From Pseudonocardia sp. (GTDB lineage: Bacteria > Actinomycetota > Actinomycetes > Mycobacteriales > Pseudonocardiaceae), in the NCBI GenBank assembly GCA_025869365.1, contig JAOZVV010000025.1:16281-80280 (forward strand): DNA of 64,000 nucleotides, written 5' to 3'. The translations under genes were made by a program, and so were the position numbers. Below are positions 10,375-41,155 of the stretch, in pieces (the stretch's first letter is position 1; every line of letters starts with the position of its first letter). The notes under the pieces were generated by a model. The model was given only the letters and a program-made list of their open reading frames with translations. It was not told the origin of the DNA and made no database searches.

Positions 10375-11412
10375 ATGAGTGACCGCACGAGTCTGCGGCC
10401 GGAGGCCACGCGGCGGCGGGGCCGGCGGGTCCTGGTGGGGGTCGTGGCCGCCCTGCTGGTGATCGTGCTGGCGGTCGCGGCGGCCGTCTGGGTCGTCACG
10501 GACCGCCTGGGGGACAACGTCGCCCGGGTGCCGAACGCGTTCGCCGGGATCGACGAGGCGACCCGGCCGGTGGAGGATGCCGCGGCGACGACGTTCCTCC
10601 TGGTGGGGACGGACACCCGCGCGGACGGGCCGACGACGGGCACCGATGCGGCGGCCGGGACGGACGCGGGGTCCCAGCGCAGCGACGTGATCATGCTGGC
10701 CCATCTCGCGGCGGACGGGACCACGGCGTCGGTGACGTCGATCCCGCGCGACAGCTGGGTGGACATCCCCGGCCGCGGCAAGAACAAGATCAACGCGGCG
10801 TACGCGTTCGGCGGTGCGCCGTTGCTGATCCGGACGGTGGAGAACCTGACCGGGGTGCGGATCGACCACTTCGGTGTCATCGACTTCGCCGGGTTCCAGC
10901 AGATGGTGGACTCCGTCGGCGGGATCGACGTGCGGGTGGCCGCGGCGACGTCGAACTTCGGTGTGGACTTCCACGAGGGACTCAACCACCTCGACGGCGC
11001 GCAGGCGCTGGCCTACGTGCGTCAGCGCTACGGGCTGCCGAACGGGGACCTGGACCGGGCGAAGCGGCAGCAGAACGCGCTGCGCGCGTTGTTGGGCAAG
11101 GTGAGCAGCAGCTCGTCGGACCTGGTGGGGCTCTACGATCTGGTCGACGCGACGAGCCGCACCGTCAGCGTGGACGACACCCTGACCAACGGCGGCCTGC
11201 GGACACTCGCGCTGGACAACCGCAACCTGCGGGCGTCCGGTGTCACGTTCACCAGCGCGCCGGTCGCGGGGCTCGGCCGCGAGGGCCCGCAGTCCGTGGT
11301 CTACCTCGACGACGCCGCGGGCGCCGAGCTGTGGTCCGCCGTCCGTGGAGGGACGGTCGCGCAGTACGTCAGCACCCACCCGAACGAGGCGCTGGGCGCG
11401 ACCCCGTCCTGA
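10375..11412 (+). CDS. LytR-CpsA-Psr (LCP) family glycopolymer transferase
   Basis: TM anchor, TTFLLVGTDTRADG, QRSDVIMLAHLAADGTTASVTSIPRDSWVDIPGRGKNKINAAYAFGG, DHFGVIDFAGFQQMVDSVGGIDV, HLDGAQALAYVRQRYGLPNGDLDRAKRQQNAL. Confidence 0.95.
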   Translation: MSDRTSLRPEATRRRGRRVLVGVVAALLVIVLAVAAAVWVVTDRLGDNVARVPNAFAGIDEATRPVEDAAATTFLLVGTDTRADGPTTGTDAAAGTDAGSQRSDVIMLAHLAADGTTASVTSIPRDSWVDIPGRGKNKINAAYAFGGAPLLIRTVENLTGVRIDHFGVIDFAGFQQMVDSVGGIDVRVAAATSNFGVDFHEGLNHLDGAQALAYVRQRYGLPNGDLDRAKRQQNALRALLGKVSSSSSDLVGLYDLVDATSRTVSVDDTLTNGGLRTLALDNRNLRASGVTFTSAPVAGLGREGPQSVVYLDDAAGAELWSAVRGGTVAQYVSTHPNEALGATPS

Positions 11413-12214: not shown

Positions 12215-13534
12215 TCAGAGCCGGTCGACGGCGGGATCGGCCAGCCGGTTGCGGGTGTCCAGGACCCGGCTCGCGCGGCTCTCCAGCAGGTCCCAGTCCA
12301 GGTCGTCGTGGTCGGTGAGCACCAGTACGAGATCCGAGCGGTCCACCCTCTCCTCGGTCATCTCCACGAGCTCGATGAACGAGGGGACGTACATCGGATC
12401 GATCAGCGGGTCGGCCGCCGACAGCCGGGCCCCCCGGTCCGCGAGCCGCCGGGCCACGTCGAGCGCGGGGGACTGGCGCGCGTCACCGGAGTTCGACTTG
12501 TACGAGAGCCCGACGAGCAGGATGGCGCTGTCCCTGATCGACCTGGACCGCTCGTTGAGGTGCGCGGTGACCCGGTCGACCACGTAGTCCGGCATGTGCT
12601 CGTTGATGTCGTTGGCGATGTCGATGAAGCGGAAGGTCCGGCCGACCGAGCGTTGTACCTGCCACTGGAGGTAGGACGGGTCGATGGGCAGGCAGTGCCC
12701 GCCCACCCCCGGCCCGGGGGTGAACTTCATGAACCCGAAGGGTTTGCTCGCGGCCGCGTCGACGACGGACCAGACGTCGATGCCCAGCCCGTGGCAGTAC
12801 ATGGCCAGCTCGTTGACCAGCGCGATGTTGACGTGGCGGAACGTGTTCTCGAACAGCTTCGTCAGCTCCGCCTCGCGGATCGTCGCGACCGGCACGAGCT
12901 CGTCGACGATGTCGCGGTAGAACGCGGACACGGCGTCGAGCGACCCGGCGTCGAGCCCCGACACGACCTTGGGCGTGTTGCGCAGGCCCCACCTGCGGTT
13001 GCTCGGGTCGATCCGCTCCGGGCTGTAGCCCACCCGGAAGTCCCGCCCGGCCCGCAGGGGCCCGCTGCTCTCCAGGATCGGGATGAAGACGTCCTCGGTC
13101 GTGCCGGGGTAGGTGGTCGACTCGAGCACCACGCAGCACCCGGGGCTCAGGTGCGGCCCGATCTCCACCGCGGCCGCCTCGATGTAACTCAGGTCCGGCG
13201 CGCCGTCCCGCAGGGGGGTCGGCACGGACACCACGACGACGTCGAAACCGGCCATCAGCGCGGCGTCGTCGGTCGGCTCGTACCTGCCGGTCGCCAGCAT
13301 CGAGGCCACGGTCTCCCCCGACACGTCGTCGATGAAGGAGCCGCCGCGACGGAGGAGATCGATCCGGTTCTTGTCGGTGTCGTACCCGATCACGTGGTAG
13401 CCGGCCTCGACCGCGCGCACCGCGAGCGGCAGCCCGACGTACCCCTGGCCGACGACGACCAGGCGGCGCGGTACCGCTCCGCCGGACGACTCCGGGAGCG
13501 CCTGCTCGCCCGATTCCGATCGACTCCGGGTCAT
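12215..13534 (-). CDS. UDP-N-acetylhexosamine 6-dehydrogenase (WecC/WbpA-like nucleotide-sugar dehydrogenase)
   Basis: LVVVGQGYVGLPLAV, VLESTTYPGTTED, FENTFRHVNIALVNELA, GPGVGGHCLPIDPSYL (catalytic Cys). Confidence 0.92.
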   Translation of the reverse strand: MTRSRSESGEQALPESSGGAVPRRLVVVGQGYVGLPLAVRAVEAGYHVIGYDTDKNRIDLLRRGGSFIDDVSGETVASMLATGRYEPTDDAALMAGFDVVVVSVPTPLRDGAPDLSYIEAAAVEIGPHLSPGCCVVLESTTYPGTTEDVFIPILESSGPLRAGRDFRVGYSPERIDPSNRRWGLRNTPKVVSGLDAGSLDAVSAFYRDIVDELVPVATIREAELTKLFENTFRHVNIALVNELAMYCHGLGIDVWSVVDAAASKPFGFMKFTPGPGVGGHCLPIDPSYLQWQVQRSVGRTFRFIDIANDINEHMPDYVVDRVTAHLNERSRSIRDSAILLVGLSYKSNSGDARQSPALDVARRLADRGARLSAADPLIDPMYVPSFIELVEMTEERVDRSDLVLVLTDHDDLDWDLLESRASRVLDTRNRLADPAVDRL

Positions 13535-16370: not shown

Positions 16371-16392
16371 GCCGCCCGGCGCCCGGGCTCAG
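16367..16392. terminator. Probable bidirectional hairpin between convergent genes
   Basis: CTGAGCC-GCCCGGCGCCCG-GGCTCAG; 7-bp perfect stem (16367-16373 / 16386-16392) spanning both stop codons. Confidence 0.45.
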
Positions 16393-17027
16393 GCCGCGGG
16401 CGCCGACGGGTGACCGGGATCGACCGGGCGGGCGGGGGCGACAGGGCCCGGCATCATGCCGGGAGGATCGGGGTTGAGCCCGTCCGCCCCGTAGACGCCG
16501 TCCGGGCGCAGGAGGCGGGCCGCCGTGCGGACCAGGATCCTCAGGTCGACCCCGAGCGAGCGGTTCTCGATGTACCACAGGTCGAGCTCGATCCGTTCGG
16601 GCCAGTCGATCGAGTTCCGGCCGTTCACCTGGGCCCAGCCGGTCAGGCCCGGCCGGATCGCCAGCCTTCCCCGCTGGCGCGGCGTGTAGACCTCGATCTG
16701 TTCCGGAAGGGTCGGCCGTGGCCCGATCACGCTCATGTCACCGCGGAGGATGTTCCACAGCTGCGGGATCTCGTCCAGGCCGGTGGCGCGCAGCAGTTCG
16801 CCCGTGCGTGTCCGGCGTTCACGCTCGTCCTGACCGGGGAACGCCTCCGGCGGCATCGTCCGGAACTTGACGATGGTGAACGGCCGGCCGTCCCTGCCCG
16901 AGCGCTCCTGGTGGAACAGGACCGGTGAGCCCATCGACACCCGGACCGCCAGCGCGACCGCGAGGGCCACCGGCGTCAGGATCAGTCCCACGATCAGGGA
17001 CACGACGATGTCGAACGATCGCCTCAT
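16389..17027 (-). CDS. PglC-like monotopic phosphoglycosyltransferase (initiating sugar transferase)
   Basis: MRRSFDIVVSLIVGLILTPVALAVALAVRVSMGSPVLFHQERSGRDGRPFTIVKFRTM...LLRATGLDEIPQLWNILRGDMSVIGPRPTLPEQ...RPGLTGWAQVNGRN; single membrane helix, small size. Confidence 0.93.
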   Translation of the reverse strand: MRRSFDIVVSLIVGLILTPVALAVALAVRVSMGSPVLFHQERSGRDGRPFTIVKFRTMPPEAFPGQDERERRTRTGELLRATGLDEIPQLWNILRGDMSVIGPRPTLPEQIEVYTPRQRGRLAIRPGLTGWAQVNGRNSIDWPERIELDLWYIENRSLGVDLRILVRTAARLLRPDGVYGADGLNPDPPGMMPGPVAPARPVDPGHPSAPAA

Positions 17028-18283
17028 GCGTTGGCCTCCACTGGATCGCGGTCTCGGATTGGTCGGCCCGGGGGATTGACGGCCAGTGCCGCGAAGACCC
17101 AGAGGAACCGGCTGTCGTAGAAGTCCCCGGAGGTCATGCTGGCGGTGGTGATGAAGACGATGGCCATGACCAGGGCCAGCGAGTCGTTCGGGAGCGAGCG
17201 CCAGGGCTGGACATCCCGGATCAGCGCCACCACGAACCCCGCCAGCAGGACGAGGCCGACGACGCCTCCGGTGGCCGCGACGTCCACGGCGAGGTTGTGG
17301 GGGTAGCCCAGGTCCGCGTTGACACCGAAGTGGACGTAGAAGCTGTCCAGGCCCCCGCCCACCACCGGGTTGTCCCGGAACAGGGCCAGTCCCTGCTCGA
17401 CGAGCTGGGGCCGTCCGGAGAACTGGTCCTGCTGGGGCGCCGCGACGAAGCGCTCCTGGATCATCTGCAGGTTCTTGGCGTCGAGCAGGACCAGGCCGGC
17501 GGCGAGGCCCGTGAGCAGCACGAGCACGGCCGCCACGACCGCACGCACCGACAGACGACGCCAGCACAGCACCACGAACGCCGCCGCCGTGACTCCCGCG
17601 GACAGCACGCCCCCGCGGGAGCTGGCCAGCAGCGCCGCCGTCAGCAGCAGGGGCACCGGGACCAGGTAGAGCTTGCGTCGGTAGATCACGGCCAGCGCGA
17701 TCGCGGCGAGCGCGCCGAGGAGGACCACCCGGACGTAGATGTTCGGCCCGCCGCCGAAGGCGATCGTCCGGCCCTGCTCGTCGGTCTGACCCACGACGAG
17801 CCCGCTGAACGCGTACAGCATTCCGCTGGCGAAGGTCGCGACGAGCACGACGCGGCGGGCCTTGGCCGGGTCCGGTCCCGAGACCACGACCATGACCACG
17901 ATCAGCAGCGCCATGTAGACGAGGTCGGCCACCCGCTCGTCCGTGCGGGCGGCGTAGGGCGCCCAGAAGACCGTGAGCCACAGGTAGCCGATGACGGCGA
18001 GGGTCCACAGGAGCGACGGGGCCCACGGGTGCCGGTAGTCCGGATGGTCCGGCCGGTAGCGCCACAGCAGCGCCGCCACCGCCAGTGCCGGGCAGACGAT
18101 CAGCCGCAGGTCCAGCTCGCCGAACTCGGTGATGCCGATCCGGTCGAGGGTGAACCGGCCCATCAACGCGGCGACGTAGGTCGCCAGGATCAGGGAGACC
18201 GGGACGGCGCGGCCCGCCCGCGCCGGCGGCGCGAGGAAGGAGGCGGGTTGCCGGTGTCGCCGTCGAGTGTCGGAGAGGCTCAT
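17024..18283 (-). CDS. O-antigen ligase/polymerase-like (Wzy) membrane protein
   Basis: Multi-TM; VVGGGLDSFYVHFGVNADLGYPHNLAVDVAATGGVVGLVLL typical of Wzy_C/WaaL superfamily. Confidence 0.85.
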   Translation of the reverse strand: MSLSDTRRRHRQPASFLAPPARAGRAVPVSLILATYVAALMGRFTLDRIGITEFGELDLRLIVCPALAVAALLWRYRPDHPDYRHPWAPSLLWTLAVIGYLWLTVFWAPYAARTDERVADLVYMALLIVVMVVVSGPDPAKARRVVLVATFASGMLYAFSGLVVGQTDEQGRTIAFGGGPNIYVRVVLLGALAAIALAVIYRRKLYLVPVPLLLTAALLASSRGGVLSAGVTAAAFVVLCWRRLSVRAVVAAVLVLLTGLAAGLVLLDAKNLQMIQERFVAAPQQDQFSGRPQLVEQGLALFRDNPVVGGGLDSFYVHFGVNADLGYPHNLAVDVAATGGVVGLVLLAGFVVALIRDVQPWRSLPNDSLALVMAIVFITTASMTSGDFYDSRFLWVFAALAVNPPGRPIRDRDPVEANA

Positions 18284-18285
18284 CG

Positions 18286-19452
18286 CTAGTGCGTCCCGTT
18301 CGCGCCGAGGATCTTCGCGTTCACGGCCATGGCCGCGTAGTACTGCGTGTTCTGCACGCCGTAGCCCTGCAGCAGCTCCTGGACCGCGGGGTCGTACCTG
18401 CCGAGCTTGACGAAGCCGTCGGCGATCCAGCCGTTGCCCTGACCGCTGCCGTCGACGTACTCCGGGTAGCGGTCGTCCCGGCCCAGCACGAAGGACGTGA
18501 GCGTCCGGGAGAACCGCGCCGTGTCCTCGGCGGTCCAGCCGGCGTCGAGGTCCCGCGCCTCGACGACGAAGGCGATCACGCCGTTCCCGTGGCTGACGTC
18601 CTGGCCCGGGCCGCTGTCCTGGCCCCAGACGTCACTCCACCAGTAGGCGACCGGATCGGCCCGGCTGGGCCGCAGCTGCCCCCGCAGGGACGAGGGGTAG
18701 TTCGGCAGCCCGTCGCTGATATCGGCCACGACCTCGTCGTAGCGCGCCCGCCGGGCGGGGTCCGTGGTCACCACCGAGAGGTCGAGTGCGATGTAGGCCC
18801 AGTGGGCCGCCATGTGCGTCCGGCTCCGGTAGATGAAGTCGTCCGCACCGCGCGAGAACCACTTGTCGAAGACGTTCTGTTCGGCGAAGGCCGTCAGCCG
18901 GTCGGAGCGGTCGCGGTAGCCCGCGACGGCGTACAACGGGCTCGTCCGCAGCACCCGGAGCAGCCGCGTGATGTAGCGCCAGCAGTAGCTCTCGAACAGC
19001 GGCACCTCCTGACCGCGGAGGTCGGGCTCCTGCGTCGTCCAGCCGAGGTAGGCGTCGTCGTAGCCCCGGGCGAACGACACCGAGGGACGGGCCGTCGCCA
19101 TCACGTTGTCCGCGTAGTCCAGCGCGACGTCGGCGTACCGGGCCTCGCCGGTGGCCTCGAACATGCTGGTGAAGGCGTCGATCGAGTACGCCAGCGTGTA
19201 ATGGTCCGCGCTGTCCGGGGACAGGCTGAGCGGGCGGCTCTCCGCGTCGAACGCGCTCTCGTCGGCGTCGAACGCAGCCTTCCAGTACGAGACCGGCAGC
19301 AGCGGCCGGGCCGGGTGTCCCGGCGGCGGCACCGGGGCCAGGCCGCCCGAGGGAGGTGTCGGCGGCGGCGGGACGGCGGTGCAGGCGCTCACCGCGACGA
19401 CGAGGACCAGCATCAGCCCCGCCGCCGCCCTGCCCGACATCCGCGCCGTCAC
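18286..19452 (-). CDS. Secreted lipoprotein with helical-barrel glycan-active-enzyme-like sequence
   Basis: Lipobox-like VLVVAVSACTAV; helical-repeat sequence rich in W/Y/D; GTGA 4-nt overlap with upstream wzx-like gene; no family assigned with certainty. Confidence 0.55.
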   Translation of the reverse strand: MTARMSGRAAAGLMLVLVVAVSACTAVPPPPTPPSGGLAPVPPPGHPARPLLPVSYWKAAFDADESAFDAESRPLSLSPDSADHYTLAYSIDAFTSMFEATGEARYADVALDYADNVMATARPSVSFARGYDDAYLGWTTQEPDLRGQEVPLFESYCWRYITRLLRVLRTSPLYAVAGYRDRSDRLTAFAEQNVFDKWFSRGADDFIYRSRTHMAAHWAYIALDLSVVTTDPARRARYDEVVADISDGLPNYPSSLRGQLRPSRADPVAYWWSDVWGQDSGPGQDVSHGNGVIAFVVEARDLDAGWTAEDTARFSRTLTSFVLGRDDRYPEYVDGSGQGNGWIADGFVKLGRYDPAVQELLQGYGVQNTQYYAAMAVNAKILGANGTH

Positions 19453-20753
19453 GTGCCCCTCCCGGTGGCCGCGGTCGCGCCCCTCCGCGCAGGCCGGACC
19501 CGCAGGAGGAGCGCGCCCGCGCAGGTGAGACAGGCGAGGTACCCGAGCAGCGTCCCGTAGGCGGCACCGGCGGCCCCGTACCGTCCGATGAGCACCACGT
19601 AGGTCACGATGCTCACCGCGAAGCCGACGACCTCGGCCACCGAGGCCATCGTGTTGCGGCGCACCGCGATCAGCAGGTTGACCACGATCTGGGCCGTCCC
19701 GAAGACGGCGGACGCCGCGACGAGCGGGAGGACGAGCTGTCTCGCGGGCTCGTAGTCCGGGCCCAGCAGCGGCACCAGTGCCACGTACAGGGCCACCGCC
19801 AGGAGACACGCGGCCGCGACACAGTAGACGACGACGCCGCCCAGGATCCGGCGCACGGCCAACGTCCCGCGGTCGTGCGCCTCCCGCCACACCCCGAGGC
19901 GGGAGTCCGCGAACGCCATCAACGGCCAGGCGAGCAGCTCCGTCATCGTGGCGACGGAGGCGTAGATCCCCAGCGCCGCGGTGGAGGCCAGGGCGGCGAG
20001 CAGCACCCGGTCGAGCCGCAGCATCCCGCTGTTGGCCATCGAGGAGGGGAGGAGCTGCAGCCCCTCGCGGCGCGCCGCGCGCAGGGCGTCCGGGGACGCG
20101 GGCGTCGAGTCCGGTGCGGCGCGCAACGCCCACCGGGTGATCCACACCGCCGTCGGGAGGACCCCGACGACCACGTAGGCCAGCATCCACGTCGTGCTGC
20201 TGGTGTTGCCGCCGAGGAACAGGAGGCCGATGCACACCAGCCGCAGGGACTCGCACGCCAGGGTGTAGCCGAGGAACTCCCGCTGCCGGCCCGCCGCGAT
20301 CGCGACCGAGCGGACGGCGCGGACGAAGGCGTTCGCCACCGCGAACAGGAGCGTCAGCGCGATACCGGTGCGCCAGGACCCGATGCCCGGCAACGGCACG
20401 ACGAGCACCGCGATCAGGATGGCCAGCCCGACCGACGACGGCGCCGTCAGCAGCCGGACGAACGATCTCGCGACGAGCCGCGCCGGTCTGCCCGAGTAGA
20501 CGGCGACGACGCTGCGGTCGCACCCGAGCAGCAGTCCCAGGCTGCACATGTAGGCGAGCTGCAGCATCAACGCGAGCTCGCCGCGCCCCGAGGGCGCGAG
20601 CGCCCGGGCCGCCAGGATGTTGACGACGAACGCCGCCCCGGCGGCGACGAGCTGGCAGATCAGGAGCATCGACGACGGGTCCTTGGCCGCGCTCCGGACG
20701 GCGGCGCACGCGGCGGCCACCGGTCGTGCGCGGCTCGGGCTGCTGGTCGTCAC
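19449..20753 (-). CDS. Wzx-like polysaccharide flippase (set A)
   Basis: About 12 hydrophobic helices; VVNILAARALAPSGRGELALMLQLAYM...; GTGA overlaps with neighbours. Confidence 0.85.
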   Translation of the reverse strand: MTTSSPSRARPVAAACAAVRSAAKDPSSMLLICQLVAAGAAFVVNILAARALAPSGRGELALMLQLAYMCSLGLLLGCDRSVVAVYSGRPARLVARSFVRLLTAPSSVGLAILIAVLVVPLPGIGSWRTGIALTLLFAVANAFVRAVRSVAIAAGRQREFLGYTLACESLRLVCIGLLFLGGNTSSTTWMLAYVVVGVLPTAVWITRWALRAAPDSTPASPDALRAARREGLQLLPSSMANSGMLRLDRVLLAALASTAALGIYASVATMTELLAWPLMAFADSRLGVWREAHDRGTLAVRRILGGVVVYCVAAACLLAVALYVALVPLLGPDYEPARQLVLPLVAASAVFGTAQIVVNLLIAVRRNTMASVAEVVGFAVSIVTYVVLIGRYGAAGAAYGTLLGYLACLTCAGALLLRVRPARRGATAATGRGT

Positions 20754-22006
20754 GGACGGGACCGTCGCGCCGTGGCGACCCGGCCCCGGGGCCGGTCACC
20801 GCCGTCCCCGAGCACGGCCGCGGCGAGCACCCCGAAGAGCCTGTCCCGGGAGAACCGCTCGACGGCCAGCCGCCTCGCCGCCGCCCCGGCGCGGGTCAGC
20901 CAGGCGGTGTCGCGGACCGCGGCGGCCAGGTCCTTCGCCGCCAGCGCGATGTCGTGCGGGTCGAGCACGATCCCGGCCCCGCTGTCCCGCAGGATCGTCG
21001 CCTGCCAGCCGCCGTAGTTGATCGCCTGCGGCCGGCTCGCCGCCAGCGCGTCGAAGAACTTGTTCGCCGAGTTCGCCTCGAGGGCGGGCAGCGGCACGGT
21101 GACGCTGGTGGCGACGGTGGCCGCCCCCATGATCGCCGGTACGTCGGCCTTGGGGACGCTCCCGGTGATGAACAGGGTGCGGTCGAGCACGTCCAGCTCG
21201 GTGGCGAGACGCCTGACCTCCGGCAGCTCGACCCCGTCGCCGACCAGCAGGAAGCGCACCTCGGGATCGAGCCTCGCCATCTCCGCGGCCACCCGCACGA
21301 GGTACCCGACACCGTTGACGCGCCCGAAGGTCCCCAGGTAGACGACGAGCGGGCGGTCCTGCAGCCACGGTCGGGCCGCGCGGAAGCGCCGGACCACGTC
21401 CGGGTCCGCGGGGAACAGGTCCAGGTCCGCCGCGTTCGGCACGACCGAGATGCGCTCGGCGGGGTACCCGTGACGGGCCACGCCCTCCGCCATCCCGTCG
21501 GACAGCGCCACCACGCTGTCCGCGTTGCGGTACGCGGCCCTGGCCAAGCCGTAGGCGAGCCGCACCGCCACGGGGTTGTCCAGGGCCCCCATCGCGATCG
21601 GGATCTCCGGCCACAGGTCGCGCACCTCGAACACGAAGCGGGCCCTGCGCGACCGGGCCGCGATCATGCCGGGTATCGCCACCGTGAGGGGCGTGCTCGA
21701 GGCGAAGACGACGTCGCCGCGCAACCGGGTGGCCTTGATGCTCGCGGCCACGGCGAACTGCAGGAAGCTCACGATCCGGCGCCGGTAGGACATCGTGTTC
21801 GAGTAGGGGGCCGGCAGCCAGTGCACCCGGATGCCGTCCTCCGTCGTGGTTCGCCACGACAGCGACGGGCTCTCCGCGGCGATGTCGCTGGTGACGACGT
21901 GGACCTCGTGGCCGAGATCGGCGAGCCGGCGTGCCTGTTCGTAGGCGCGGGTCCCGCCGGACATCGAGCGGGTGGTGAAGTACTGGTAGAGGTAGACGAT
22001 TCGCAC
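20750..22006 (-). CDS. WbuB-like GT4 glycosyltransferase
   Basis: VRIVYLYQYFTTRSMSGGTRAYEQARRLADLGHEVHVVTS...FEVRDLWPEIPIAMG...VVYLGTFGRVNGVGYLV...EANSANKFFDALAASRPQAINYGGWQ. Confidence 0.92.
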   Translation of the reverse strand: MRIVYLYQYFTTRSMSGGTRAYEQARRLADLGHEVHVVTSDIAAESPSLSWRTTTEDGIRVHWLPAPYSNTMSYRRRIVSFLQFAVAASIKATRLRGDVVFASSTPLTVAIPGMIAARSRRARFVFEVRDLWPEIPIAMGALDNPVAVRLAYGLARAAYRNADSVVALSDGMAEGVARHGYPAERISVVPNAADLDLFPADPDVVRRFRAARPWLQDRPLVVYLGTFGRVNGVGYLVRVAAEMARLDPEVRFLLVGDGVELPEVRRLATELDVLDRTLFITGSVPKADVPAIMGAATVATSVTVPLPALEANSANKFFDALAASRPQAINYGGWQATILRDSGAGIVLDPHDIALAAKDLAAAVRDTAWLTRAGAAARRLAVERFSRDRLFGVLAAAVLGDGGDRPRGRVATARRSRP

Positions 22007-22045
22007 GGGAGTCAGCGCCCTTCGTGGGTTCGGGCAGGGGAGCAC

Positions 22046-23272
22046 TCAGGCGGTTGCCGCGTACATGACCTTCTCGACCGCGTCCGCGGAGTCCGCGATG
22101 TCCGCCGCGCCCAGCGTCGGGTGCACGAGCAGGGCGAGTGAGGTCCGGCCGAGCTCGGCGGCCACGGGCAACGGCCGGTCCGGCCTGCCCACCGAGTCGA
22201 ACGCCCGCTCGCGGTGGATCTCGGTGCAGCCGCCGTTCGCGCACGGGATGCCCTCCGCCCGGATCGCGGCTGCGATCCGGTCCCGGTCCCAGCCGGGGGC
22301 GAGCAGCTCGTCCCGGACGTGCAGGTAGAAGCGGTAGTACGCCGGCTCGGCGCCCGCCACCACCGGGGGCAGGCGCAGGCTCGGGATGTCCCCGAGCCTG
22401 TCCCGCAGCACCGCGGCGTGCGCTCGGCGCGTCGCGACCCAGCGATCGATCTTGCGGAGCTGGGTGAGGCCGACCGCCGCCTGCACCTCGGTCATGCGGG
22501 CGTTCGTGCCGAAGCTCTCGTGCACCCAGCGGAAGCCCGGCGGGTGCTCCCGCTCGAAGACCGCCGCATAGCTCTTGCCGTGGTCCTTGAGCTCCCAGCA
22601 CCGCCGCCACAGCGCCTCGTCCCCGGTGGTGATCATGCCGCCCTCGCCGGCGGTGGTCATGATCTTGTCCTGGCAGAAGGACCACGCGGCGACATCACCG
22701 ACGGTTCCCACGCCCCGGCCGTCCCGCCGCGCTCCGTGGGCCTGTGCGCAGTCCTCCACCACCCGCAGCCCGTTGTCGCGCGCGACCCGCCGCAACGCCG
22801 CCATGTCCGCCGGGAACCCGGCGAGATGCACCACGATCACCGCCCGGGTGCGCTCCGTCACGGCCGCGGCCAGGCCGTCCGCGGTCATGCACTGCGTGTC
22901 CGGTGCGACGTCGACGACGACGGGGACGGCACCCCGGGTGACCACCGCGCTGGCCGTCGCGATGAACGTCACGGACGGGACGACGACCTCGTCCCCGGGG
23001 CCGATCCCGAGAGCCGCCAGCGCGATCTCGAGGGCGACGGTGCCGTTGGCGACGGCCACGCCGTACGGGGCGCCGGCCCACGCCGCGAACTCGCTCTCGA
23101 ACCGCCGTCCCCGGCCGCCCGTCCAGTAGTTGACGTCCCCCGAGGCCAGGACCTCCTGGACCGCGGCGGCGTCGTCCGCGTCGAAGGACGGCCACCGCGG
23201 CAGGGGCACGGACCGCACCGGCGTGCCCCCGGCACAGGCCAGGGTGGTCCCTGGGGTCCGGATCGCGGTCAT
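22046..23272 (-). CDS. DegT/DnrJ/EryC1/StrS family sugar aminotransferase
   Basis: GDEVVVPSVTFIATASAVV, VVEDCAQAHGA, AAWSFCQDKIMTTAGEGGMITT (PLP Lys). Confidence 0.93.
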   Translation of the reverse strand: MTAIRTPGTTLACAGGTPVRSVPLPRWPSFDADDAAAVQEVLASGDVNYWTGGRGRRFESEFAAWAGAPYGVAVANGTVALEIALAALGIGPGDEVVVPSVTFIATASAVVTRGAVPVVVDVAPDTQCMTADGLAAAVTERTRAVIVVHLAGFPADMAALRRVARDNGLRVVEDCAQAHGARRDGRGVGTVGDVAAWSFCQDKIMTTAGEGGMITTGDEALWRRCWELKDHGKSYAAVFEREHPPGFRWVHESFGTNARMTEVQAAVGLTQLRKIDRWVATRRAHAAVLRDRLGDIPSLRLPPVVAGAEPAYYRFYLHVRDELLAPGWDRDRIAAAIRAEGIPCANGGCTEIHRERAFDSVGRPDRPLPVAAELGRTSLALLVHPTLGAADIADSADAVEKVMYAATA

Positions 23273-25161
23273 CGGTGCTCCTCGGCGCGGCCGACCTCGA
23301 GCAGGGCGCCGCCGAACGGCGCGCCCAGGCCGACGGCGGCGGAACCGGAGCGGGGGGTGGGCACGAAGGGGGTGCCGGTGGTCAGCTCGACCATGGCGGC
23401 CGCGGGATCGGCGACCGCCGACAGCCCGCGGATGTCGTCGGGATGCAACGGCGGGACCCGGACGTGGGAGATCGCGGGGTGCAGCGGACGGACGTCGTAC
23501 TCGTCGGTGCCGAAGAGCTCCTCGTGCAGCTTCTCACCCCCGCGCAGTCCGGTGTAGACGATCGGGGTCGTGCGGCCCGCGATCTCCATCAGCTGGTGGG
23601 CGACGTCCACGATGCGCACCGGCGCCCCCATGTCGAGCACCAGCGCCTCCGCGGACCGGCCGATCGCCGCCGCCTGGATCACCAGTTCCACGGCCTCCGG
23701 GATGGTCATGAAGAACCGGGTGACATCGGGGTGGGTGATCGTCAGCGGACGACCGGCCGTGATCTGGTCGGCGAAGGTCGTCAGGACCGATCCACGGCTG
23801 CCGAGCACGTTGCCGAACCGGACCGACAGATAGGAACCGTCGGTCTGCTCGGACAGGCTCGCGACCAGCCGCTCGCCGACCCGCTTGGACCGACCCAGGA
23901 CGCTGATCGGGTTGGCCGCCTTGTCCGTGGAGATGTTGACGAAGCGCTCGGCCCCGCAGTTCAGCGCCGCGTCGAGGACGTGCCGGGTACCGAGGACGTT
24001 GGTCTTCCAGGCCTCGACGGGGTACTGCTCGAGCATCGGCAGGTGCTTCAGGGCCGCGGCGTGGAAGACGACCTCCGGGCGCCGTTCCGCGAACAGGCTG
24101 TTCAGCGCCTCGGCGTCGCGGATGTCCGCCAGGAGGACGTCCGGGGAGTCGAGCAGGGCCTTGCCGTGGATCGACAGCTGGACGCCGTGCAGGGCCGACT
24201 CGTCGCGGTCGAGCATCATCAGTTCGGCCGGCTCGAAGCGATGGATCTGCCGGCACAGCTCGGACCCGATGGACCCGCCGGCCCCGGTCACCAGGACCCG
24301 CTTGCCGCGCAGATATCCGGCGATCGTGGCGACGTCGGTCTCGATCGGCCGGCGGCCCAGCAGGTCCGCGACGTGCAGGTCCCGCAGGTCGGAGAAGCCC
24401 ACCCACGGCGTGATGAGCTCCGGGAGCGGGGGCAGCAGCTTGACCCCGATGCCGGCGTCCAGGGCCGTCGCGGCCAGCTGCTTCATCACCGCGGGTTCGG
24501 TGTGCCGCACGGCGATGACGAGGACCTGGGCACGGGTCTCGGCGGCGACGGCGGCGAGATCGGCCCGGCCCCCCCGCACCCTGACCCCCGCGATGCAGCG
24601 CCGGCGGAGCTCCGGGTCGTCGTCGAGCAGGGCCACCGGGCGGTAGCCGCTCTCCGGTTCCGACAGCATCGACCGCACGAGCTGCCGTCCGGCCTCCCCG
24701 GCCCCGAACACGATGACCGGCTGTGCCCCCGCGACCGGGCCCCTCGGGCGCTCCGACCGGCGCCGCACGAGCAGCCGCGCGCAGGCGGCGAGGGCGAGCA
24801 TGCCCAGCGCCGCGGTGAACGGGACCGAGCGCGGGACGAGCTGCTCGGGCATCAGGAACTGGTAGGCGAACAGCAACGCGCAGACCGTCGAGGCGACGAG
24901 GGCGAGGCTCCACGCCTCCTCGACGCTGCCGACGTAGTAGCGCCCGCGGTAGGTGCCGACCGCCGTACCCACCAGCCACTGCGCGACGGCGGCCACCGCG
25001 GCGATGTGCAGCACACCGGCGACGGCGATCTGGCCGGTGTCCCAGTCGTACCGGAACAGCGTGGCGACCACGAGTGCCACCGCCCATGCGACGCCGTCGA
25101 CCGAAGGCAGTCCGAGATGTCGGATCCGTGGTCGCCGCAGCGGGTTTCCGAGTGGGTACAC
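23269..25161 (-). CDS. CapD/PglF-like membrane NDP-sugar dehydratase (copy 2)
   Basis: Near-colinear paralog of 14118..15965: RGKRVLVTGAGGSIGSELCRQIHRFEPAELMMLDRDESALHGVQLSIHGKALLDSPDVLLADIRDAEALNSLF. Confidence 0.93.
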   Translation of the reverse strand: MYPLGNPLRRPRIRHLGLPSVDGVAWAVALVVATLFRYDWDTGQIAVAGVLHIAAVAAVAQWLVGTAVGTYRGRYYVGSVEEAWSLALVASTVCALLFAYQFLMPEQLVPRSVPFTAALGMLALAACARLLVRRRSERPRGPVAGAQPVIVFGAGEAGRQLVRSMLSEPESGYRPVALLDDDPELRRRCIAGVRVRGGRADLAAVAAETRAQVLVIAVRHTEPAVMKQLAATALDAGIGVKLLPPLPELITPWVGFSDLRDLHVADLLGRRPIETDVATIAGYLRGKRVLVTGAGGSIGSELCRQIHRFEPAELMMLDRDESALHGVQLSIHGKALLDSPDVLLADIRDAEALNSLFAERRPEVVFHAAALKHLPMLEQYPVEAWKTNVLGTRHVLDAALNCGAERFVNISTDKAANPISVLGRSKRVGERLVASLSEQTDGSYLSVRFGNVLGSRGSVLTTFADQITAGRPLTITHPDVTRFFMTIPEAVELVIQAAAIGRSAEALVLDMGAPVRIVDVAHQLMEIAGRTTPIVYTGLRGGEKLHEELFGTDEYDVRPLHPAISHVRVPPLHPDDIRGLSAVADPAAAMVELTTGTPFVPTPRSGSAAVGLGAPFGGALLEVGRAEEHR

Positions 25162-25204: not shown

Positions 25205-26719
25205 CTAGTCGCCCGCCGAGCCGGCGGAGTTGAGGCTCCGCCTGCGCGGCGAAGCCGTGGGTGTGGACCCGGGGGCGGGCGGGCCGGGTGGCGTCCCGGC
25301 GTCGTCGGACCGCGCCGGGCCGTCGTCGGCGACGGGTGGCGGTGCCGAGCGTGGTGTCGCCGGACCCGGTCGCAGGACCGCAGCCGTCCACCGGTTGGGC
25401 ACCTGGTTCAGGATCGTCCCGACGACGGGGGCGGAGACCCCCTCCAGGATCTCCATGACCGAGTGCACCTCACGACGACCGGTCCTGCCGTGTCGGACCG
25501 CGAGCACGACGCCGTCCGCGGCCCGGGCGAGCGCCACCGCCTCGCTCGCCGAGAGGATCGGTGGCGTGTCGAGCAGGACCACGTCGTAGCGTCGCGCGAG
25601 CTCCGCCAGGAGGTGCCGGACGTGGTCGGAGGCCAGCAGGCCACCGGGGTGCGACGACAGGCAGCCCGCGGTGAGGACGTCGAGGAAGCCGTTCCCCCAC
25701 GGTCGCAGCACCGTGTCCAGGGGCCTGCCGCCCTCGAGCACGTCGATCACACCGGCTTCCGGGTGGCCCGGGTCGTCCTCCGGCGGCCGGCCGAGCATCT
25801 CCCCCACCCGCGGATTGCGCAGGTCGCAGTCGACGAGCACCACCCGTCGCCGGGACTGGGCGAGGGCGACGGCCAGATTGCAGACGATCGAGGTCCGCCC
25901 GTCCCCGTTGTTCGGGCTGATCACGGCGGTGATCTCCCCGCGGGAGCCGGCCTCGGCGGACGTCAGGGCGGCGCAGATCCGCCGGTAGGCCTCGGCCTGC
26001 GCACTGTCGGGCCGGGTCGCGACGGCCAGCGGGTCGAGGACGCTGGCCGGATCCCTGCGGAGCACCCCGAGGAGGGGGGACCGGGTCACCTCGGCCAGGT
26101 CCCGGGGCGACCGGACCGGCATCCGGAGGGCGTTGAGCGCGAGGGCCCCGGCGAGACCGGCGAGGAGGCCCAGGATCGCGCCGAGGATCAGGTTCAGCAT
26201 CATGTCCGGCGTCACGGGCGTGTCGGAGAAGGTCGCGGGCTGGACCACCTTGACCGTCAGGGCGGGGGCGTTGGACGGGTCGTTCCGTTCGAGATCCGCG
26301 ACGGTCCGGGTGAACTCCCGGCTCAGGGCGCCGGCGATCTGCTGGGCCCGCTCCGCCGAACCGTCGACCACCCTGGCCTTGATCAGCACGGTATCCGGGT
26401 CCAGGATCACCGAGGTCTCCCCGACGAGTTCGACCGGGTACATGTCCAGCCCCAGGTCCCGCACCACGCCCCCCGCGAGCGCCTCCGTGGTCAGGAGGGG
26501 GGCGTAGGACTTGGCCCGTTCCGTGGCGAGGAGCGCGCCCTGGTACGCGATCGACTCGTCCGCCGTCGGCGTGGGCGCCAGGATCATGGTCACCTCGGAG
26601 GCGTAGGTCGTCGATGTCCGGCTCGAGACGACACCGGCGCAGACGAGCCCGATGAGGAGGCCTGCCAGGACGACGTACCAGTACCACGCCACGACGCGTA
26701 GGTAATTGCGAATCCCCAC
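25205..26719 (-). CDS. Wzz/BY-kinase-like polysaccharide co-polymerase with altered Walker A
   Basis: Two TM Wzz architecture; ATPase domain ITAVISPNNGDGRTSIVCNLAVALAQSRRRVVLVDCDLRNPRVG...YDVVLLDTPPIL; GTG start at 26719. Confidence 0.9.
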   Translation of the reverse strand: MGIRNYLRVVAWYWYVVLAGLLIGLVCAGVVSSRTSTTYASEVTMILAPTPTADESIAYQGALLATERAKSYAPLLTTEALAGGVVRDLGLDMYPVELVGETSVILDPDTVLIKARVVDGSAERAQQIAGALSREFTRTVADLERNDPSNAPALTVKVVQPATFSDTPVTPDMMLNLILGAILGLLAGLAGALALNALRMPVRSPRDLAEVTRSPLLGVLRRDPASVLDPLAVATRPDSAQAEAYRRICAALTSAEAGSRGEITAVISPNNGDGRTSIVCNLAVALAQSRRRVVLVDCDLRNPRVGEMLGRPPEDDPGHPEAGVIDVLEGGRPLDTVLRPWGNGFLDVLTAGCLSSHPGGLLASDHVRHLLAELARRYDVVLLDTPPILSASEAVALARAADGVVLAVRHGRTGRREVHSVMEILEGVSAPVVGTILNQVPNRWTAAVLRPGPATPRSAPPPVADDGPARSDDAGTPPGPPAPGSTPTASPRRRSLNSAGSAGD

Positions 26720-26724
26720 TGTGA

Positions 26725-27786
26725 CTACCTTCCGATTTCCCTGAACGGTGGCGTTCCGCCCCGACGGTCCGTGCCGACCCCCACCAGGCGATCGCATTTC
26801 GCCGCGACGACATCGGGCCGGACGGTGAGCCATGCCGTCTCCGGCACCCGACCCTCGGCCCAGGAGACGAGGGCCGCGGGCAGATCCGCGCCGGCGACCT
26901 GGGAGAACGGGTAACCGCCCCCGAACCGCGGGTTCAGCTCCAGGACGTAGGGCTGCCCGTCGCCGACGAACACGTCGCAGTCGAGGTTGCCGACGTGGCC
27001 GAGCTGGCGGCCCAGGACCTCGCCGAGCTTGCGCAGCTGATCGTCGTCGACCGTCATGGCCCGGTCCGTCTCGCCGGCCCGCATCGACAGCTTCCGTTTC
27101 GCGAACGTCGTGACGTGCCTGCCCGCCAGGTCGTTGACGACGTCCAGGCCGTGTTCCTGCCCGGAGAGGTGCTCCTGCACCAGCACGGACCGCCCCGGGT
27201 CCGCGTCGCTCATCCCGGCGATGATGGTCCGCCGGATCCGGATCTCGGTGAGCCGGAACGCGAGCTCGAGCTCCTCGAGGTCCCGGGGGTACTCGATCCC
27301 GATCGACGCCGTTCCCCAGCGGGGCTTCACCACGACCGGGAACGTGAGCTCGCCCTCGGCCAGCGCCGCGCGGGCGTCGGCCAGGGACAGGTACGTCCGC
27401 GGAGCGGGCAGGCCCAGGCCCGTCAGGAACCGGTGGGTCGCCCACTTGTCCGTGCAGGTGTCGATCACCGCGGGCGTGGAGACCACCGGGATCGTGCCGA
27501 TCGCCAGGAACTCGTCGCGACGGCGGGCGAGGATCGGCAGTTCGAGGTCGTTGAGGGAGACCACCAGCCGGACCCGGTGCTCCGCGCACAGGGCCAGCAG
27601 GTGGTCGACGTAGTCCGGCCTGCCGACCGGTGGCACGACGAGTGCGGTGTCCGCCTCCTGCATGGCGGGGGCATCGGGGTCGGTGTCCGCGGCGAGGACC
27701 CGGCCGGTGCCGCGCACCGCGTCCCGGAAGTACTCCACCAGGTAGTTGCGGCGCCCCGCACACGTCAGGAGGACGTTCGTGGTCAT
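26725..27786 (-). CDS. ATP-grasp domain ligase (carbamoyl-phosphate-synthase-like)
   Basis: NVLLTCAGRRNYLVEYFRDAV...TDKWATHRFLTGLGLPAPRTY...FPVVVKPRWGTASIGI...VQEHLSGQEHGLDVVND...YVLELNPRFGGGYPFSQVAGADLPAAL. Confidence 0.9.
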   Translation of the reverse strand: MTTNVLLTCAGRRNYLVEYFRDAVRGTGRVLAADTDPDAPAMQEADTALVVPPVGRPDYVDHLLALCAEHRVRLVVSLNDLELPILARRRDEFLAIGTIPVVSTPAVIDTCTDKWATHRFLTGLGLPAPRTYLSLADARAALAEGELTFPVVVKPRWGTASIGIEYPRDLEELELAFRLTEIRIRRTIIAGMSDADPGRSVLVQEHLSGQEHGLDVVNDLAGRHVTTFAKRKLSMRAGETDRAMTVDDDQLRKLGEVLGRQLGHVGNLDCDVFVGDGQPYVLELNPRFGGGYPFSQVAGADLPAALVSWAEGRVPETAWLTVRPDVVAAKCDRLVGVGTDRRGGTPPFREIGR

Positions 27787-27821
27787 GTCAGATGCATCCC
27801 GGGTCGGCGTCGGAGAGGTGG

Positions 27822-29060
27822 TCAGAAGGTGTAGGTCGCGAAGACGTCGTCGATCTGCTCACGTCGTCTGAGCACCTCGAAGCGGTCTGAGCCCCGATCG
27901 TGGGTGATGATGCAGGGAGCCGGGCGGATGAACGGTGGCTTCATGACGATCGTGTACGCGCCGACGTTGTCGAACAGTGCGTAGTCCCCGGGACCCAGCC
28001 GGCCGGAGTACCCCTCGAACAGCACGTCGTGTTCCATGCAGGTGTACCCGACGACGTCGATCCCGTCGTACTCCTCGCGAACCGCTTCGTCGGGCGAGCC
28101 GACGACCGTCATCGGCATGGTCTTCCCGTGCAGGGTCGGCTTGATGGTGTGGATGCTGCCGGAGGCGAGGGCGACCGACCGGGACCGGACCCGCTTCACG
28201 GTCACGATCCGGGCGACGAACGTCATCACGTCCGCGGTCAGCGCGGATCCCGGTTCGACGATCAGCTCGGGACCCGATCCGCCCGGATAGGTCGCGGCCA
28301 CCTCGGATGCGACGGCCTCCGCGTAGTCCTCGTAGCGGGGAACCGGACCCGCGAACTGCCGGCGCAGCGCGGGGCTCATCCTGCTGAAGTACCCGCCGCC
28401 CAGGTTGAGGAAGCGGGGAGGGGAGTCCGGGAAGTTCTCCACGGCCAACTCCAGCATGCGCTTGGTGCGCAGGGAGTAGGACTCCACGCTGCGATGCCCG
28501 GTCGAGGCGTGGAAGTGCAGTCCGGCGAGGTCGCAGGTGGACACGCGGCGCAGTCGGTCCAGCGCCTGCCGGAACTCCGGCGCCTCGACGTCGAAGCCGA
28601 ACCTCGACACCCGGTCCGTCCCGATGTCGATGTTGCAGCGCAGGGCGACCGTCAGCGGCCGGTCCGGGGCCCGGGCGGCGATCCGCTCGACGATGTCGAT
28701 CTCCGCGGCCGAGTCCAGGTTGCAGGTCGCCCCCTCGAGGAGGGCCAGTTCCAGATCGTCGGCGGTCTTGTACGGGCCGTTGAAGATGATCCGCGCCGGC
28801 GGGACGCCGATGCGCCGGGCGAGGTCGTACTCCATGCGGGAGACGACCTCGGCGTACCCGCCCAGGGCGAGCACCCGCTGGCACAGCCGCGGCAGGTAGT
28901 TCGTCTTGTACGAGTAGCCGATCCGGGTGTTCGGGTAGATCGCCCGGAAGGCGTCCAGGAAGTGGTGGAAGTTGTCCTCGAACGCATCGACGTCCACGTA
29001 GAAGAACGAGTCCCCGTACTGCTCGTCCAGTGTCCTGAGAAGGTCCCACGAGAATTCCAT
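27822..29060 (-). CDS. Fold-III PLP-dependent decarboxylase (DAP/ornithine decarboxylase-like)
   Basis: IGYSYKTNYLPRLC (PLP Lys), GLHFHASTG, FLNLGGGYF, LIVEPGSALTAD, VVGYTCMEHDVLF, DYALFDNVGAYTIVM. Confidence 0.92.
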   Translation of the reverse strand: MEFSWDLLRTLDEQYGDSFFYVDVDAFEDNFHHFLDAFRAIYPNTRIGYSYKTNYLPRLCQRVLALGGYAEVVSRMEYDLARRIGVPPARIIFNGPYKTADDLELALLEGATCNLDSAAEIDIVERIAARAPDRPLTVALRCNIDIGTDRVSRFGFDVEAPEFRQALDRLRRVSTCDLAGLHFHASTGHRSVESYSLRTKRMLELAVENFPDSPPRFLNLGGGYFSRMSPALRRQFAGPVPRYEDYAEAVASEVAATYPGGSGPELIVEPGSALTADVMTFVARIVTVKRVRSRSVALASGSIHTIKPTLHGKTMPMTVVGSPDEAVREEYDGIDVVGYTCMEHDVLFEGYSGRLGPGDYALFDNVGAYTIVMKPPFIRPAPCIITHDRGSDRFEVLRRREQIDDVFATYTF

Positions 29061-38041: not shown

Positions 38042-39163
38042 TCAGCCGGTCATCTCCTCCGCGACCACCCAGCGGCCGCCGCTCGCCTCGATCTCCGGCA
38101 TCGCCTTGCGCACCTCGGGCAGCAGGTCCGGGACGAACAGCACGACGTTGTCCGGTCTCGCGGCCACCAGCTCGTCCGGGGAGATGATCGGGATCTCGCT
38201 GCCGGGCAGCCTGCGCCCGGCCTTGGCCTCGGCCGCGTCCGCGACGTACGGCATGAGCTCGGGGCCGATCCCGGCCGTGTTCAGCAGCGCGACCGAGCGG
38301 GACGCGGCGCTGTAGCCCAGCGTCGTGCGGCCCGCCGCCTTCTCCGCGTCCACGAAGCTCCGCAGCGCGCCGACGGTGGCGGTGGTGGCCTCCTGCAGGC
38401 TGCGGGCCCTGGCCGGATCGAGTACCCCGACGGCCTTCTCGCCCTCGACGATCCGGGCGACGGCCCCGTCCGGCACACCGCCGCGGCGCGCCGCGAGCAG
38501 CACCGTGCCGCCGTAGAGCGGATACCGGAACGCGGTGACCGGGGTGAGCCCGACGCTCGCGAGCATCGTGATCAGCGCCGGCGTGGAGTAGTAGGCGTAG
38601 TGGCCGTGCCGCAGGGCGTTCCACTGGCCGTGCTCGATGATCGCGCGGAACGAGTGGAACTGGAACAGCAGCACGCCGTCCGGGGTGAGCCGGTCCACCC
38701 GCTCCGCCAGGGCGGCGGCCTGGTCCGCGTCGTGCATCATCCCGATGTTGTCGATGATCACGTCCGCGCGCTGCCCGTCCGCGGCCGGCGTCAGGCCGCG
38801 CTCGAGCAGGATGTCCAGCCAGTCCCCGCCGTGCGGGCTGCCGTACTCGACGACGACCTTCCCGGGGGCCACGATCCCGGCCGCCGCCATGTCCGCGACG
38901 GCCTCCTTCGCCTGTTCGATCCAGGCGTCCGGTTCCTTGCCGCGCGGCTCCTCGGGGACCGTCGGGTCCTCGATCAGCTGGGCGAGGCCGCAGCCGCCGC
39001 AGAGCCACATGCGCAGCGGATGCACCGGGTCCGGGCCCGGCTCGGTGGCCAGGGGGAACAGGTCGCTGGCGGGCTGGAGTCCGGCGTCGAGCACGAGCTC
39101 GCCGTCGGTCGACCGGCAGAATCGGCAGGTGACGTCGTCCTGGTCCGGCATCGGCGCGCTCAT
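38042..39163 (-). CDS. C-methyltransferase-like protein with degenerate SAM-binding region
   Basis: N-terminal CRFC...CGGC zinc motif and C-terminal domain like neighbour 39160..40479; SAM motif region reads VVVEYGSPHGGDWLDILL. Confidence 0.8.
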   Translation of the reverse strand: MSAPMPDQDDVTCRFCRSTDGELVLDAGLQPASDLFPLATEPGPDPVHPLRMWLCGGCGLAQLIEDPTVPEEPRGKEPDAWIEQAKEAVADMAAAGIVAPGKVVVEYGSPHGGDWLDILLERGLTPAADGQRADVIIDNIGMMHDADQAAALAERVDRLTPDGVLLFQFHSFRAIIEHGQWNALRHGHYAYYSTPALITMLASVGLTPVTAFRYPLYGGTVLLAARRGGVPDGAVARIVEGEKAVGVLDPARARSLQEATTATVGALRSFVDAEKAAGRTTLGYSAASRSVALLNTAGIGPELMPYVADAAEAKAGRRLPGSEIPIISPDELVAARPDNVVLFVPDLLPEVRKAMPEIEASGGRWVVAEEMTG

Positions 39164-40479
39164 CCCATCACCTGCGGGCTCGGGACCGGAACGATGAAGC
39201 GCCCGCCGGCCCGCCGGTACTCCTCCTCCTGCTTCATGATCTCGTTCTTGAAGTTCCAGGCCAGCAGCAGCACGTAGTCCGGCTTGCGCGTCATGAGCTC
39301 CGACGGGTCCAGCACGGGGATCCGCGCGCCCGGGACGAGCTTGCCCTGCTTGTGGGTGTTCACGTCCGCCACGAAGTCGATGACGTTCGCGCCGATGCCG
39401 GTGGAGTTCAGCAGGGTGGCGCCCTTGGCGGCCGCGCCGTAGGCGGCGATGGACTTGCCCTGGGCCCGCAGCTCGCGCAGCAACGTGGACAGCTGCGTCT
39501 GGTTGGCCGCGACGCGTGCGCCGAAGTCCGCGTAGGAGGAGAAGTCGTCCAGGCCGAGGGCGTACTCCTCGTCCAGGTGGCGCAGCGCCCGATCGGTGGG
39601 CGTGCCGGTGCGGCCGGCGCTCCAGCGCAGCGTGCCGCCGTGCAGGTCCGGGAAGAACTCGACGTCGAGCAGCTGCAGGCCGTGGCGGGCGAAGAGCTTC
39701 TGCACCGCGATCGTGGAGAAGTAGCAGAAGTGCTCGTGGTAGACGGTGTCGAACTCGCAGTGCTCCAGCAGGTACCGGACGCCGGGGTTCTCCACCTGGA
39801 TGACGCCGTCGTCCGCGACGAGGGCGGCCATCCCGGCGACGAAGCCGTTCAGGTCCGGGACGTGCGCCATCACGTTGTTCGCGATCACGACGTCCGCCGC
39901 GCCGTGCTCCTTGCGGATCCGCAGCCCGGTGTCCGCGCCGAAGAACTCCTCGAGGGTCGGGATCCCGGCGGCCCGGGCCGCGGCGGCCGGACCCGCGGTC
40001 GGCTCGACACCCAGCACCGGGATGCCGTGCTCGACGAAGCGCCTCAGCAGGTAGCCGTCGTTGCTGGCCAGCTCGACGACGAACGACTCCGAGTCCAGCC
40101 CGCGCTCGTCGACGAGGGTGTCGACGTGCGCCGCCGAGTGCGTGAGCAGCGCCTTGATGAAGGAGGAGTAGTAGGGGTAGTCCGCGTCGAACATGGCTTC
40201 GGCCGGGAGCTCGTGGGTGAGCTGCACGAGCGAGCACGACGGGCAGAAGCCGATCGCGAGGGGGAAGGAGGGGTCCGGGGTCGCGGACCGAGCCGGCTCG
40301 ACGAGCGCGTTGGCGATCGGCGTCGCGCCGAGGGACAGGAACTCCCGCACTCCCGGGGTCCCGCAGGCGCGGCAGCACGTCACGTACTCCGCGACCGCGG
40401 ACCTGCGCGGGATCGGCAACGCCACACTATGGGTGGCGACCATGCCCACCGGTTCCTGAACCCTCTGATCCTGACCCAT
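39160..40479 (-). CDS. Class I SAM-dependent NDP-sugar C-methyltransferase-like protein
   Basis: CRAC...CPSC zinc motif; FVVELASNDGYLLRRF...VLGVEPTAG...VVIANNVMAHVPDL...DTVYHEHFCYFS; ATGA overlap with 38042..39163. Confidence 0.9.
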   Translation of the reverse strand: MGQDQRVQEPVGMVATHSVALPIPRRSAVAEYVTCCRACGTPGVREFLSLGATPIANALVEPARSATPDPSFPLAIGFCPSCSLVQLTHELPAEAMFDADYPYYSSFIKALLTHSAAHVDTLVDERGLDSESFVVELASNDGYLLRRFVEHGIPVLGVEPTAGPAAAARAAGIPTLEEFFGADTGLRIRKEHGAADVVIANNVMAHVPDLNGFVAGMAALVADDGVIQVENPGVRYLLEHCEFDTVYHEHFCYFSTIAVQKLFARHGLQLLDVEFFPDLHGGTLRWSAGRTGTPTDRALRHLDEEYALGLDDFSSYADFGARVAANQTQLSTLLRELRAQGKSIAAYGAAAKGATLLNSTGIGANVIDFVADVNTHKQGKLVPGARIPVLDPSELMTRKPDYVLLLAWNFKNEIMKQEEEYRRAGGRFIVPVPSPQVMG

Positions 40480-41155
40480 ATCCCCGCTCCCCGCTCCGCT
40501 GCGATGTCGACCCGGCTCCGGGCGCACCGTATGACTCGTCTTCGGGGGAGGACCGGGCGGTGTTACCGACCTCTGCACGGTTTGACGTCGTATGCCCGAA
40601 CTCGGTCGGGTCTCGTGCCGGGCTCCCCCGATCTGCCACGACCGAGCGAGACTCAGATCACATCGACGGTGCCGAAGTACCTCGGTGCGCCCCCGGCCCG
40701 GAGGGCCGCGTGGAGGTGGCTGCGGCTCCGGGTGCCGGGCCGGTGGGACGACGGACGTTGCCGTACTCCATCCATTCCGTCACCGCCGCCCGTTCGGTGG
40801 GGCCGGGCGAGGCCGCGACCCGCGGTACGTCCGGTCGGGGACACGGGCCGCCGCAGCCGGCCGAGGGGGAGTGCCGGTAGCTGGGAGTGTCACCGAGAGG
40901 GCCGAATCCATCGATCGAGTGGTCATCGTGAGCTGCGTTCGGACCGGTAATGACCGAACGTGATGCTCGGACGGGCGGCGGTGAGGCTCTTTCAGCAATG
41001 CGACGATCACGCAGAGTTCACATTTCTGCACGTCAGGTACCCGTAACGGTGAGGGGCGTCTCATCGTTCATACGGTTGAGGATTCGACGAAACGTCGCGG
41101 GGTGACGGGACGACTTCCTCGTCACAGTGCTTTTCACGTGTCTTGGGGGCCGATC

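Follow-up and report, generated by a model that had tools for sequence, protein, structure and literature searches.

A candidate ligase–decarboxylase module for amino-acid-derived decoration of a surface glycan in Pseudonocardia sp.

Two described systems combine an amino acid decarboxylase with an ATP-grasp ligase. In Campylobacter jejuni, the decarboxylase Cj1436 has an aminotransferase fold and not an alanine-racemase fold, and in the butirosin system the ATP-grasp ligase is BtrJ. The C. jejuni reactions are proven, with Cj1436 decarboxylating serine phosphate, the ATP-grasp enzyme Cj1438C amidating GlcA, and Cj1435 removing the phosphate (PMC11800379, PMC12409886). Several decarboxylases, namely, FigC, SbnH, AcsE, MccE, and BtrK, use amino acids that have already been conjugated to citrate, a peptide-nucleotide, or a carrier protein, and the substrates of the FigC clade (clade 2) comprise citryl-ornithine, citryl-diaminopropionate, citryl-serine, the MccE intermediate, and glutamyl-ACP (PMC7857480). 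The residue following the catalytic Cys is Met355 in FigC, whereas in free-substrate enzymes it is acidic and binds the side-chain amine (PMC7857480).

The DNA analyzed here, referred to as the window, is a stretch of 64,000 nucleotides from a Pseudonocardia sp. contig (JAOZVV010000025.1, assembly GCA_025869365.1). It encodes, on the minus strand, a pyridoxal phosphate (PLP) fold-III (alanine-racemase-fold [AR-fold]) decarboxylase that resembles FigC/FslC (27822..29060; 412 amino acids [aa]) and an ATP-grasp ligase with a PylC-like N-domain of the PRK12767/NF009404 type (26725..27786; 353 aa). Both genes have an ATG start and a strong codon-position signal. They lie where the original prediction placed them, and the predicted families agree with the Pfam and NCBIfam matches, which are Orn_Arg_deC_N/C for the decarboxylase and PylC-like_N plus ATP-grasp_3 for the ligase. 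The predicted adjacency also holds, but the gap between the genes measures 35 nt instead of 36 nt. The decarboxylase gene is probably the first in the run because the nearest upstream gene, which has the same orientation and encodes a PAP2-type protein, stops 297 nt short of it; a promoter scan of the region 5' of the decarboxylase gene found nothing.

The packed run predicted downstream of the pair is present with all of its members, each on the minus strand. A Wzz/BY-kinase-like chain-length protein (25205..26719) begins with a GTG at position 26719, 5 nt past the ATP-grasp stop codon, although ORF tools extend it further upstream. A CapD/PglF-type nucleotide-sugar 4,6-dehydratase (Polysacc_synt_2; 23269..25161) and a DegT-family aminotransferase (22046..23272) follow, and their expected products are a 4-keto sugar and a 4-amino sugar, respectively, the latter being a candidate acceptor. 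The remaining genes encode a GT4 glycosyltransferase (20750..22045; Pfam and NCBIfam), a Wzx-like flippase with a weak Pfam match (19449..20753), a 387-aa protein with a lipobox-like N terminus (18286..19449), a Wzy/O-antigen-ligase-like polymerase (17024..18283; Pfam), and a PglC-type sugar-1-phosphate transferase (16389..17027; Pfam and NCBIfam). The 387-aa protein, which had been called a barrel enzyme, matched no Pfam or NCBIfam family. Outside the run, the predicted WecC/WbpA-like gene is by domain scan a real uronate-forming UDP-sugar 6-dehydrogenase gene (12215..13534, minus strand), which lies about 13 kb from the pair and could be an alternative source of an acceptor. No acyltransferase domain was found in the approximately 40 window proteins scanned, as had been claimed from the sequence. 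In the same glycan region, the gene at 7293-10985 encodes a protein that combines acyl-activating, carrier, and thioesterase domains and could provide an acyl group. In addition, the window contains two full-length CapD-type dehydratase genes on opposite strands of one region (14118-15965 and 23269-25161), an NDP-hexose C-methyltransferase-like gene with a second sugar transferase gene (39163-42607), which suggests a second glycan locus, and a class-IV aminotransferase gene (53897-55294) about 25 kb from the pair.

The decarboxylase has the two-domain AR fold with the PLP lysine, the HxH motif, the Gly loop, and the catalytic Cys; its motifs are K52, HxH at 182-184, GGG at 221-223, EPG at 269-271, and C341-M-E-H-D345, and the catalytic residues quoted in the original prediction are invariant among its relatives. 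Its best solved relative, by both sequence and fold, is the N-citrylornithine decarboxylase FigC/FslC (26% identity), and a confident AF2 model (pLDDT, 88) matches 7kh2 with a TM score of 0.82. The score against the FslC model NF041039 is 125.9 bits, below the cut-off of 500, and the resemblance to the FigC/SbnH/BtrK group was judged by best-hit ranking. The pocket is FigC-like. M342 takes the place of the acidic residue that follows the catalytic Cys in free-substrate enzymes, and this position holds M, L, I, or V in 20 of 20 paired relatives; the specificity helix is without the Asp of the ornithine enzymes. K307 aligns with an Arg in the "RPxxY" motif of the M. jannaschii DAPDC. Position 307 is K or R in 19 of the 20 paired enzymes, whereas Asn predominates there in the aldolase-group enzymes described below. 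Such a pocket appears suited to a side chain that has no free amine and an anionic or polar distal part, which is consistent with a conjugated substrate without being proof of one. The likeness to conjugate-acting enzymes, a point absent from the original prediction, in turn suggests that ligation takes place before decarboxylation.

The ATP-grasp protein scores 463.2 bits against NF009404 (PRK12767 type; cut-off, 316) and 19 bits against PylC (TIGR03909; cut-off, 248.3), and it matched no TupA model. Its Pfam matches are PylC-like_N, ATP-grasp_3, ATPgrasp_Ter, and ATP-grasp_4. The active site is intact, with K114, K154, D269, D271, N285, and R287 invariant and E283 nearly so in 16 sequences. 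The structural model is confident (pLDDT, 89), and the solved structure closest to it is 2pn1, which comes from structural genomics and owes its name to homology only. Relatives that lack a decarboxylase neighbor occur in an O-antigen-like cluster on an Escherichia coli plasmid, where DegT, GNAT, and PALP-type (serine racemase/dehydratase-like) enzymes are also encoded, and in Sphingobium, where they are accompanied by PglC, GNAT, DegT, and a PLP enzyme. The PLP, GNAT, and DegT genes of these clusters look like a set for amino acid supply and acylation of an amino sugar. Next to the ATP-grasp genes of more distant relatives on alphaproteobacterial plasmids (L119 to L122) lies a gene for a HAD hydrolase, often with one for a formyltransferase, and the HAD neighbor recalls the ligase-phosphatase set of C. 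jejuni.

A scan of a genome collection with the decarboxylase retained 80 relatives from many phyla, of which 15 have an adjacent ATP-grasp gene, 63 have an HpcH/HpaI-like aldolase gene and/or a class-IV aminotransferase gene, and 2 have neither; none of the 80 carries both partner sets. Among 339 cyanobacterial genomes sampled, the decarboxylase was found in five (E ≤ 1e-60), one of which, Cylindrospermum, was the center of the sample and known beforehand. All five are paired, in the order decarboxylase, ATP-grasp, DegT, and Wzc comes next in four of them. Paired loci contributed to the HMM by which decarboxylases were scored, and the pairing counts therefore rest on the genome-collection scan and the cyanobacterial sample, neither of which was selected via the ATP-grasp. 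In a gene-neighborhood check of the kind proposed in the original prediction, the pair thus recurs across several phyla, mostly in surface-glycan loci, so that its co-occurrence exceeds chance. In Spartobacteria (L085/L113), for example, the order is PglC, PLP decarboxylase, ATP-grasp, GNAT, DegT, and CapD.

The paired ATP-grasps belong to two families, of the PylC-like_N and ATPgrasp_N types. In the decarboxylase tree, a single label change separates the paired from the aldolase group, with low branch support for the split, and in the PylC-like_N tree, the paired label requires three changes. In the locus L008, the decarboxylase is 53% identical to that of the window and the ATP-grasp only 36%, a gap which suggests that partners have been exchanged. 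The Neobacillus paridis locus L084 (5676-12279) holds two pairs with different ATP-grasp families in one cluster, and between them lie a glycosyltransferase-like gene and a gene of the WbqC family (PF08889). In two cyanobacterial glycan clusters (L110:10829-15520 and L111:13093-17724), a large protein is encoded close to the pair, with formyltransferase, AMP-binding, luciferase-like, and carrier domains as determined in L110. In the Thiotrichales locus L037, a further fold-III decarboxylase-like protein is encoded some 1.4 kb beyond the pair on its downstream side. A single distant match came from viral contigs.

The 63 relatives in the aldolase group (L016 to L018, L020, L022 to L033, L035 to L036, L038 to L058, L060 to L079, L081 to L083, and L087) belong to a different cassette, which combines the HpcH/HpaI-like aldolase, a decarboxylase of the same family, a PglC-type transferase, and a class-IV aminotransferase within glycan clusters, the aldolase and the aminotransferase usually being present together. 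Its hosts include Bacillota, Bacteroidota, Pseudomonadota, and others, and no ATP-grasp gene lies beside the decarboxylase. This cassette may install a new amine or amino acid decoration. It is the larger surprise and, with 63 of the 80 relatives, much bigger than the paired group. Full-text searches across 5.4 million open papers turned up neither the pair nor the aldolase cassette, which is weak evidence of novelty since most subscription papers lay outside their scope. It is conceivable, at slightly less than even confidence, that these enzymes form an undescribed and widespread AR-fold decarboxylase family for surface-glycan decoration, in which two mutually exclusive partner sets install two different decarboxylated amino acid groups.

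When 150 further genomes from the family were searched (E ≤ 1e-40), neither gene of the pair was matched, and the DegT of the locus was not matched in 12 genomes of the same genus (E ≤ 1e-100). The locus is accessory, as judged solely from this absence in the relatives searched. Recent horizontal transfer was rejected on compositional grounds, as the base composition looks native, with the GC3 of both pair genes being like that of their neighbors. A search for PglD (PglD_N; PF17836) gave no match in the whole genome, which is 90% complete, and matches in 8 of 14 control genomes. The missing PglD, which the original prediction had linked to the pair, does not hold as a general rule: PglD-like or hexapeptide proteins are encoded near the pair in 5 of the 19 paired loci, and the idea that the pair is a general replacement for PglD was rejected on this account.

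Taken together, the pair probably decorates a surface glycan with an amide group derived from an amino acid. As a whole, the observations are best explained, with confidence just short of even, by a transferable decoration module that ligates and then decarboxylates. Ligation to a 4-amino sugar followed by decarboxylation is the order and acceptor that we favor, although only tentatively. CapD and DegT would produce a UDP-4-amino-4,6-dideoxy-HexNAc. The ATP-grasp enzyme would activate an amino acid at a carboxylate, forming an acyl phosphate, and couple it to the 4-amino group of the sugar, and the PLP decarboxylase would then act on the conjugate by removing the alpha-carboxylate that is left. 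A glutamate linked through its side chain would in this way become a 4-aminobutanoyl group, comparable to the action of BtrK on glutamyl-BtrI in butirosin. The decorated sugar would be loaded by PglC or GT4 and then flipped and polymerized. The original prediction is partly supported: the pair is a recurrent module that lies mostly in glycan loci, while the sequence does not fix the amino acid or the acceptor.

The original prediction also allowed a uronic acid as the acceptor. The decarboxylase would then free an amine, which the ATP-grasp enzyme would couple to the C6 carboxylate of the uronate made by the dehydrogenase at 12215. We regard this main rival as unlikely. Its logic is proven in the C. 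jejuni HS:2 capsule (PMC11800379, PMC12409886), where decarboxylation comes first and a uronic acid is amidated, and this precedent counts against ligation before decarboxylation on an amino sugar. The window does contain a UDP-sugar dehydrogenase gene, and the HAD hydrolase beside the alphaproteobacterial ATP-grasp kin recalls Cj1435. However, UDP-sugar dehydrogenase genes are found in just 2 of the 19 paired loci, in comparison with DegT genes in 10. The excess of DegT in the ATP-grasp group over the aldolase group is modest (6 of 15 versus 9 of 63; P = 0.03), and such context frequencies are not strictly comparable, the stretches being larger for cyanobacteria than for many other loci. In addition, the active-site loop of the decarboxylase is like that of FigC, whose substrate is a conjugate and not a free amino acid, and the C. 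jejuni ATP-grasp is TupA-like, whereas the window protein is of the PylC-like_N type.

A further possibility, which we consider improbable, is that the product of the pair is a free metabolite, either a small amide or a dipeptide-like compound similar to a siderophore or signal, and that the pair travels with glycan loci by chance. Stand-alone pairs with no recognized glycan genes in the surrounding stretch do occur in Chamaesiphon (L010 and L011/L114) and in the Thiotrichales MAG (L037); FigC, SbnH, and AcsE belong to siderophore pathways (PMC7857480); and distant kin on a Streptomyces plasmid share a metabolite-like cluster with a further ATP-grasp. Nevertheless, glycan genes (PglC, Wzc, and DegT) adjoin most of the pairs with long flanks, the Wzz-like gene follows the ATP-grasp gene almost immediately in the window, and no exporter or siderophore gene adjoins the window pair. 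That the enzyme is an ordinary diaminopimelate or polyamine-type decarboxylase lying beside an ATP-grasp gene by chance is very improbable, since its top NCBIfam match, lysA (TIGR01048), gives 136.6 bits, far under the cut-off of 297.9, and its relatives belong either to the recurrent pair or to another cassette that also recurs. An ordinary LysA was rejected on this score, on the replacement of the DAPDC and ODC substrate-binding residues, and on the presence of two LysA genes above the cut-off elsewhere in the same genome.

Phages, predators, and immune systems recognize surface glycans, whose charge and recognition are altered when they carry amide decorations. A portable pair would allow an amino-acid-derived substituent to be predicted from sequence in cyanobacteria, Bacillota, Verrucomicrobiota, Pseudomonadota, and Actinomycetota. 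Moreover, the decarboxylase family, for which LysA is the closest curated model, would gain a ready assay target.

Compared with known systems, the locus differs from the bacillosamine pathway (PglF/PglE/PglD) in the lack of a PglD match in the 90%-complete genome. Its ligase belongs to the "carbamoyl phosphate synthase-like protein" ATP-grasps (PRK12767/NF009404) that occur in polysaccharide loci, but its partner is a decarboxylase, whereas the kin on the E. coli plasmid and in Sphingobium are accompanied by GNAT and PALP enzymes. The C-M-x-H-D loop and the IHTI-PT segment are common to FigC/FslC and the window decarboxylase; the specificity-helix residues of FigC are not all kept, and the ligase partner is an ATP-grasp instead of the NIS synthetase FigA/FslA. 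The pair is similar to BtrJ/BtrK in that BtrK, a homologous decarboxylase of fold III, uses a glutamate that has already been ligated. However, BtrJ/BtrK belong to an antibiotic cluster and not to a glycan locus, and there is no carrier protein in the window run, the only PP-binding domain in the window being in the 7293-10985 protein, 16 kb away. As in the C. jejuni HS:2 capsule, where an amino-acid-derived amine is added as an amide, a decarboxylase and an ATP-grasp amide ligase are encoded together in a surface-glycan locus. The ligase there is TupA-like, while that of the window is PylC-like_N and matches no TupA model; no phosphatase of the Cj1435 kind adjoins the window pair; and the acceptor there is GlcA, whereas a DegT-made amino sugar looks likelier here. 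Because the C. jejuni precedent exists with a different ligase family, the pair described here would be a variant of an already proven chemistry.
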